Below, piece after piece: positions 21,890 through 54,680 of a stretch of DNA of 59,958 nucleotides (its first letter is position 1; every line of letters begins with the position of its first letter). The notes under the pieces are model-generated. The model made no database searches and was not told where the DNA came from. It saw nothing but the letters and a program-made list of their open reading frames with translations. Source of the stretch: Nitrososphaeraceae archaeon (GTDB lineage: Archaea; Thermoproteota; Nitrososphaeria; Nitrososphaerales; Nitrososphaeraceae); assembly GCA_025923455.1 (NCBI GenBank), contig JAICFW010000003.1, forward strand, positions 1-59,958, given 5' to 3'. The position numbers and the translations under genes were made by a program.

Positions 21890-21996
21890 TTCTAGTTTCT
21901 TTTCATTTATTTGTCAAAATAGCGGATTAATCAGATTTCACGGAACTATCCCCTGGTCTATATCCTGTCATCAAGATTGTGACGTGGAGAAGTATA

Positions 21997-22087
21997 TGCC
22001 GTCGGTGAGATTTGAGCTCACGACAGCTCGGTCTTCAGCTTCACCCCATTACTGGTCGAGTGCTCTCCCAGGCTGAGCTACGACGGC
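21997..22087 (-). tRNA. tRNA-Phe(GAA) with 17-nt intron at position 30/31
   Basis: Minus strand: GCCGTCG-TA-GCTC-AGCCTGGGA-GAGC-A-CTCG|ACCAGTAATGGGGTGAA|G-CTGAAGA-CCGAG-CTGTC-GTGAG-CTCAAAT-CTCAC-CGACGGC-A. Removing 17 nt restores the stem CTCGG/CCGAG. BHB: CACT/GGTG central helix, bulges CGA and AAG, inner CCA/TGG. Intron is 22040-22056. Confidence 0.9.
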
Positions 22088-22555
22088 ACAGCTAAACTTC
22101 TGTACGAATTATATATAATCTAATCTTGTCTTGAAATCAACAACATATAGAAAGTTGTGGAATCCCACAAAATCTAGTAATATCTTCCTTGATCTAGCGC
22201 AATATATTCACCAATAGATTGATTTATGGAATTACATTCGGGGATTTTTCTTTCAGGCATATGAAAAATAGAATTATTGACTTCACATTTCCTTATCGAC
22301 TATATTTGAATATCCCATTGACGACCTTTAACTTGCTGCTATAATTTGCAAAAAGACTTTGGCTAACGGTTCTTCTCGCTGTGGTAATTTTGGAAGTAGA
22401 CATATTTATCTAGGCAAAACTGATTCAGTATTTGATTTGATACATTGCACCGCGAATTACGGACCTTAGATTGGATATTTTTTCAAGTTTGTGTGAAACA
22501 ACAATCCTAAGCCAGAAATATGTGAGAAGCATCCTCATCTTGTCCTACGAGATTA

Positions 22556-48703: not shown

Positions 48704-49154
48704 AATTAGTCCAGTCGATTTTTTTAAGATTTGTCTACGCTAATAGTAATTGATTGGTGCCTTCGGTACAGGAAACGACCCACTATATCATCAGGTGAGA
48801 TAATAGATATAGTTCACAGAAAATTTATTTAAAAACTCGTCATAACTGCTTATTCTTTTCAAAAGATGATTTTCTTGGATCAGTCAATTTACTTGTGTTT
48901 GAGATTTTTTGAGTAGTATATCCAAGCATCCTAAAATTATGAAATATTCGTAGATTGTCTTTGTTAAATCGGATTTGATAGAGTTTACAAAATTTAGGTA
49001 CAGCATCGTCTTTTTGTTGTCCTTGTTTTTGAATTAACGACATCTACTATTCTACTAAATAAGCGTATAAGGTAACTAATCTAAATATAACGTGGTTAAA
49101 CCAAAGATACCGATAAATATCCGTTTGAAAGTTTCTACTTGTAGCTCGTGAATT

Positions 49155-49288
49155 AGCCCGGTCGAATCTACACGATTGTGTTGATGCCGAATCTAGCGGT
49201 CAAACTCCACAGGAGGGCTATGGATTTCAGGCTCTGGATCGTCATGAAAAGATACCTGAGGACAGCAGTTCGAATCTGCTCCGGGCTA
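49155..49288 (+). tRNA. tRNA-Gln(CUG) with three predicted introns (27, 18 and 16 nt)
   Basis: Exons AGCCCGGTCG / TCTAGCGGTCAA / GGATTTCAGGCTCTGG / ACCTGAGGACAGCAGTTCGAATCTGCTCCGGGCTA give a 73-nt cloverleaf. Introns at 49165-49191, 49204-49221 and 49238-49253. BHB helices CGGT/GCCG (intron 1), GGTC/GGCT with inner CTCC/GGAG (intron 2), CTCT/AAAG imperfect (intron 3, canonical 37/38). Confidence 0.85.
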
Positions 49289-49299
49289 CTTTTTCTAAA

Positions 49300-54568: not shown

Positions 54569-54680
54569 GGGGCCATCGTCTAGCTTGGTCAAGGATACCA
54601 ACTCAGCTGATTTGAATTTATTTCGTCGAGGTATTGGCCTGGGGCGCTGGCGGTCGTGGGTTCAAATCCCACTGGCCCCA
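54569..54680 (+). tRNA. tRNA-Pro(GGG) with 36-nt intron at position 29/30
   Basis: GGGGCCA-TC-GTCT-AGCTTGGTCAA-GGAT-A-CCA|ACTCAGCTGATTTGAATTTATTTCGTCGAGGTATTG|GC-CTGGGGC-GCTGG-CGGTC-GTGGG-TTCAAAT-CCCAC-TGGCCCC-A. Splicing restores CCAGC/GCTGG. BHB: ATAC/GTAT with bulges CAA and TGG, inner CTC/GAG. Confidence 0.92.

Follow-up and report, generated by a model that had tools for sequence, protein, structure and literature searches.

The window analysed here, a stretch of 59,958 nucleotides from an archaeon of the Nitrososphaeraceae, a lineage of ammonia oxidisers from soil, carries on its plus strand at 49155-49288 a tRNA-Gln(CUG) gene of 134 nt. Introns at positions 10/11 (27 nt), 21/22 (18 nt) and 37/38 (16 nt) divide the gene into four exons of 10, 12, 16 and 35 nt, and a 73-nt tRNA remains when the introns are removed. 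The first-pass annotation of this DNA had given the same coordinates and intron sizes and had described the same three bulge-helix-bulge (BHB) motifs, all of which proved right to the base. The features of the locus are as follows.

49113-49120, plus strand: TATA-like box ATAAATAT, a putative promoter; orthologues have a similar AT-rich box at a comparable distance.
49141-49148, plus strand: acceptor-mimic GTAGCTCG in the 5' leader, an 8-bp complement (one G-U) of CGGGCTAC.
49155-49164, plus strand: exon 1, tRNA positions 1-10, AGCCCGGTCG; joined directly to exon 2 in homologues lacking intron 1.
49165-49191, plus strand: intron 1 (10/11), 27 nt; boundaries from ten homologues with AGCCCGGTCGTCTAG.
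49192-49203, plus strand: exon 2, tRNA positions 11-21, TCTAGCGGTCAA.
49204-49221, plus strand: intron 2 (21/22), 18 nt; boundaries from homologues with TAGCGGCCAAGGAT.
49222-49237, plus strand: exon 3, tRNA positions 22-37, GGATTTCAGGCTCTGG; anticodon CTG at 49234-49236.
49238-49253, plus strand: intron 3 (canonical 37/38), 16 nt; absent from L305 and present in 60/60 Nitrososphaeraceae genes.
49254-49288, plus strand: exon 4, tRNA positions 38-73, comprising the T arm, the acceptor 3' strand and A73.
49289-49294, plus strand: trailer C followed by a T run (CTTTTT), a possible terminator read from the sequence.

That the gene is divided in this way came from homologues that lack one or more of the introns. 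Ten genes from one genus of Nitrososphaeraceae have no intron 1 and run AGCCCGGTCGTCTAG, while L305, L330, L331, L334 and L336, which belong to other families, have no intron 2 and run TAGCGGCCAAGGAT. L305, from another archaeal family, has no introns at all; it is a 73-nt gene of the same architecture with a tRNA score of 56.8 bits. The joints in these intron-minus homologues coincide exactly with the predictions for the window, so that each boundary of this multiple-intron gene is backed by homologues. When one splicing rule was applied to 71 homologous genes, a 73-nt product was obtained in all of them, and the 25 distinct products were all called tRNA-Gln(CTG) by ARAGORN, as was the spliced 73-mer of the window. 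The exons all lie in order inside 134 bp, and the gene is neither split nor permuted. As the first-pass annotation had observed, the D arm after splicing (GTCT...GGTCAAGGAT) agrees with that of the tRNA-Pro at 54569. At the level of sequence, the case for a functional tRNA-Gln(CUG) with three introns in its gene is strong.

Each intron has a BHB motif with a 4-bp central helix and two 3-nt bulges in which the predicted cuts lie; the central helix has four of four pairs in all carriers of introns 1 and 2, and three of four in intron 3. In intron 1 the helix is formed by CGGT (49159-49162) and GCCG (49186-49189) with bulges CGA and AAT, and is fully paired in 50/50 genes. There is no outer helix, which makes it a relaxed HBh' motif. 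Its inner stem, ATC.ACAC/GTGT.GAT, covaries, with a paired fraction of 0.926, a value that none of 2000 shuffles reached (0.709 in shuffles, maximum 0.815). In intron 2, GGTC (49198-49201) pairs with GGCT (49216-49219), with bulges AAA and ATG and the inner stem CTCC/GGAG; the central helix is fully paired in 60/60 genes, including the variants GGCC/GGCT, GGTC/GACT and GGCT/GGCT, and the D stem is able to act as outer helix. The central helix of intron 3 is CTCT/AAAG with bulges GGA and ATA, and here the anticodon stem could serve as outer helix. Covariation in the inner stem of intron 2 and in the helices of intron 3 was not significant or could not be scored because nothing varied. The folding z-score of the whole precursor (-1.86) is modest and is not counted as evidence.

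The three-intron gene is widely conserved. Its tag was present in 10 of the 12 genomes of the genus, and a search of 70 genomes from the family found it in nearly all. Among 60 parsed orthologues from Nitrososphaeraceae, 50 have all three introns and the other 10 lack only intron 1. The first-pass annotation had expected such a gene to be unusual in a mesophilic-looking thaumarchaeon; instead, it is the rule in this family. Mean pairwise identity of the exons is 0.966 across the family, with 14 distinct exon sets compared with 45, 33 and 42 distinct sequences for the three introns, which vary widely in both length and sequence. Elsewhere in Nitrososphaeria, tRNA-Gln genes (L290-type genomes, e.g. 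L311, L312, L314, L323) have further intron positions at ~15/16 and ~24/25, so turnover of introns in tRNA-Gln is high.

The window genome is 1.93 Mb in 162 contigs and 95% complete. We searched it for an intact Gln(CUG) elsewhere, which would have spoken against the reading of the first-pass annotation, and no second Gln(CUG) was found; the sole other tRNA-Gln detected is the interrupted UUG isoacceptor at G000:C83:8638-8702 (L048). This gene has a 10/11 intron of its own and a leader copy GTCCGG, so that both Gln genes of the genome share the arrangement described below. The genome also encodes RtcB and two PF01974 splicing-endonuclease proteins, one of which has the GPGIDHAP/K motif of the Aeropyrum enzyme while the other lacks the His. 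Relaxed motifs are reported to be cut by two-subunit endonucleases (PMC4090602, PMC4033280).

The prediction that standard annotation misses the gene holds for ARAGORN and Rfam cmscan, neither of which gave a match at the unspliced locus. tRNAscan-SE 2.0 has a dedicated intron model for Thaumarchaeota and iterates over multiple introns (PMC8450103). An essential tRNA is in this case invisible to gene finders in common use such as ARAGORN.

A second element of the locus lies in the 5' leader. GTAGCTCG resembles the acceptor 5' strand and can pair with CGGGCTAC (49282-49289), which comprises the acceptor 3' strand, A73 and the first trailer base. Aligned leaders of intron-1 genes have versions of the acceptor 5' strand just before +1, such as AGCTCG, AGCCCGG, GCCCGG and GTCCGG. 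A copy was scored as present when, within 10 nt of +1, at least six pairs without gaps could be formed with the acceptor 3' strand. By this measure it occurs in 79 of the 80 Gln genes, CUG or UUG, that have a 10/11 intron and in 3 of 40 without, compared with 9.6% of shuffled leaders and 2 of 31 further tRNA genes in the window genome. The Fisher value for the association is 3e-26, which overstates the evidence and is not a true probability because the genes share ancestry. The association also holds between close relatives: in one genus, five genes have both intron 1 and the copy and ten have neither; in several families, the copy occurs only beside the interrupted isoacceptor of the same genome; and in one family it is found solely at the interrupted UUG gene. 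The exceptions are L138, which has intron 1 and no copy, and L303 and L329, which have a copy and no intron 1; L332 is marginal, and in L313 and L315 the copy is located further upstream. The leader copy is real and is linked to intron 1.

What could be the role of this copy is suggested by the splice motif of intron 1. Since its central helix takes acceptor bases C5, G6, G7 and U8, the motif and the acceptor stem are mutually exclusive. As bases 5-8 are occupied, the leader copy would probably substitute for them in splicing: GTAGCTCG probably pairs with the acceptor 3' strand, so that the true 5' strand is available to the splice motif. We argue that the transcript would be cut at the three BHB motifs by the two-subunit archaeal endonuclease and its exons joined by RtcB to give the 73-nt tRNA. 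In the proposed order, the true 5' strand would take over once intron 1 is removed, and RNase P would then remove the leader. This is the reverse of the order in Methanopyrus, where intron removal comes after 5' processing (PMC3695527), a point that counts against the proposal.

Folding energies are consistent with such a role. In the predicted fold of the window precursor with its leader, the copy is paired to the acceptor 3' strand. For the intron 1 motif, the cost is then 2.2 kcal/mol, compared with 4.5 when the leader is left out. Forcing the motif costs 1.5 kcal/mol with native leaders compared with 3.9 with shuffled ones, the native leader being the lower in 75 of 79 genes. We therefore consider that the copy most likely keeps the acceptor 3' strand occupied during splicing. 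In the window, the free energy favours the copy by 2.2 kcal/mol before removal of intron 1; once the intron is out, the advantage passes to the true strand, by 0.3. That splicing generally triggers such a change of pairing partner, as tried with a simple energy model, was not supported across the 79 genes (p = 0.28), although the window itself shows it; the proposed return to the true acceptor strand after splicing is unproven.

Taken together, these observations are best explained by a functional, single-copy, three-intron tRNA-Gln(CUG) whose leader copy probably frees the acceptor 5' strand during splicing, and we hold this joint reading with high confidence. A broader proposal, towards which we lean only slightly, is that introns borrowing acceptor bases depend on a leader mimic that holds the 3' strand, that this mimic is a cis-acting RNA element which comes and goes together with the 10/11 intron in the two Gln isoacceptors across Nitrososphaeria, and that splicing is thereby forced before 5'-end maturation.

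The copy could instead have no role of its own and be a mere relic, left by a tandem duplication at the time intron 1 was gained. In G116, the intronless tRNA-Gln(UUG) gene L329 has a near-perfect tandem copy, GGCCCGGTGG, immediately 5' of AGCCCGGTGG, an arrangement that is possibly an intermediate or a relic, and L303 likewise retains a copy where there is no intron 1. Against this, nearly every substitution inside the copy is a C>U at positions 3-4, which keeps G-U pairing, and the first trailer base co-varies with it, pairing with the copy base in 45 of 45 CUG genes scored (39 G-C, 6 A-U, no mismatch). Moreover, the copy is missing from all ten same-genus genes without intron 1, although in other respects their promoter region can be aligned (L121 vs L122). 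We regard the relic as an unlikely explanation.

It could also be that the endonuclease removes introns 2 and 3 only, and that intron 1 is handled by 5'-end processing or some other route, as its motif has no outer helix and the acceptor stem competes with it. The invariant pairing of its central helix in 50/50 genes and the covariation of its inner stem argue against this, and two-subunit enzymes are known to cut relaxed HBh' motifs; we find such a route very improbable. Even fainter is the prospect that the mature tRNA starts at the copy, which would then be the true 5' exon; the copy is indeed able to pair with the acceptor 3' strand. It varies at positions 1, 3, 4 and 7, whereas AGCCCGGTNG is found in every parsed gene, and genes without intron 1 possess the downstream strand only; we reject this reading on the invariance of that strand. 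Least credible is a pseudogene or chance tRNA-like sequence, which would agree with the blindness of ARAGORN and Rfam to the unspliced locus but is excluded because all 71 homologues splice to 73 nt by the same rule, and which we reject since the exons (identity 0.966, all spliced products valid) are conserved family-wide while introns and flanks diverge, the locus is the sole Gln(CUG) found, and relaxed selection is not seen.

Retaining, then, a functional gene whose leader copy probably has a role, we can compare it with known systems. Archaeal BHB introns of tRNAs are already known; the 5'-leader element is new. Earlier reports give at most three introns per archaeal tRNA gene, mostly in Thermoproteales (PMC8450103, PMC4390854, PMC3218864), in agreement with the first-pass annotation. 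The gene resembles the multiple-intron tRNA genes of Thermoproteales (e.g. species islandicum; PMC4390854) in having three BHB introns at canonical and noncanonical positions. It differs from them in that it comes from mesophilic Nitrososphaeraceae, is conserved family-wide in one isoacceptor, and repeats the acceptor strand in its leader, a copy tied to the 10/11 intron. It is of the same intron class, and from the same phylum, as the 107 noncanonical tRNA introns of Thaumarchaeota counted in the tRNAscan-SE 2.0 survey, whose accessible text does not describe this gene, the conservation of its three introns or a leader element (PMC8450103). As in the split tRNA genes of Nanoarchaeum equitans (PMC4090602), a leader outside the gene proper would pair to give a splice-competent precursor; there, the leader and trailer are complementary, whereas in tRNA-Gln(CUG) the leader copy and the acceptor 3' strand would pair in cis, as parts of a single transcript. 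Our search, mainly of openly accessible literature, found no account of the conservation of this gene or of a comparable leader element. With this gene, the range of heavily interrupted tRNA genes grows from hyperthermophiles to include soil nitrifiers, a major group. The leader copy suggests how the interrupted precursor may fold and be repaired, and it offers a testable answer for an intron whose splice motif excludes the acceptor stem, and for how such introns are tolerated or lost.

Two genomes, from different genera of a sister family, have Gln(CUG) genes with insertions at 10/11, 21/22, 25/26 and 37/38.

G282:C77:11421-11639 (L302, L344): four-insertion Gln(CUG), 219 nt.
G328:C181 (L342): four-insertion Gln(CUG), 208 nt.

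Removal of the insertions, all of which differ between the two genes, leaves an identical 73-nt tRNA, with one exon consisting merely of GGAT. By our reading, the central helix of the 25/26 insertion is at best paired at three of four positions. By sequence, these four-intron genes apparently exceed the reported maximum of three and, if true, would raise the known maximum per archaeal tRNA gene.

Two other tRNA loci were noted in the window. The tRNA-Pro(GGG) at 54569-54680 (plus strand) has a 36-nt insertion at ~29/30 with the central helix ATAC/GTAT; it was missed unspliced by ARAGORN and called Pro(GGG) after the insertion was removed. At 21996-22088 (minus strand), ARAGORN calls a tRNA-Thr(AGT), an anticodon unlikely in archaea, and the locus probably has an unusual intron and an identity other than tRNA-Thr(AGT).
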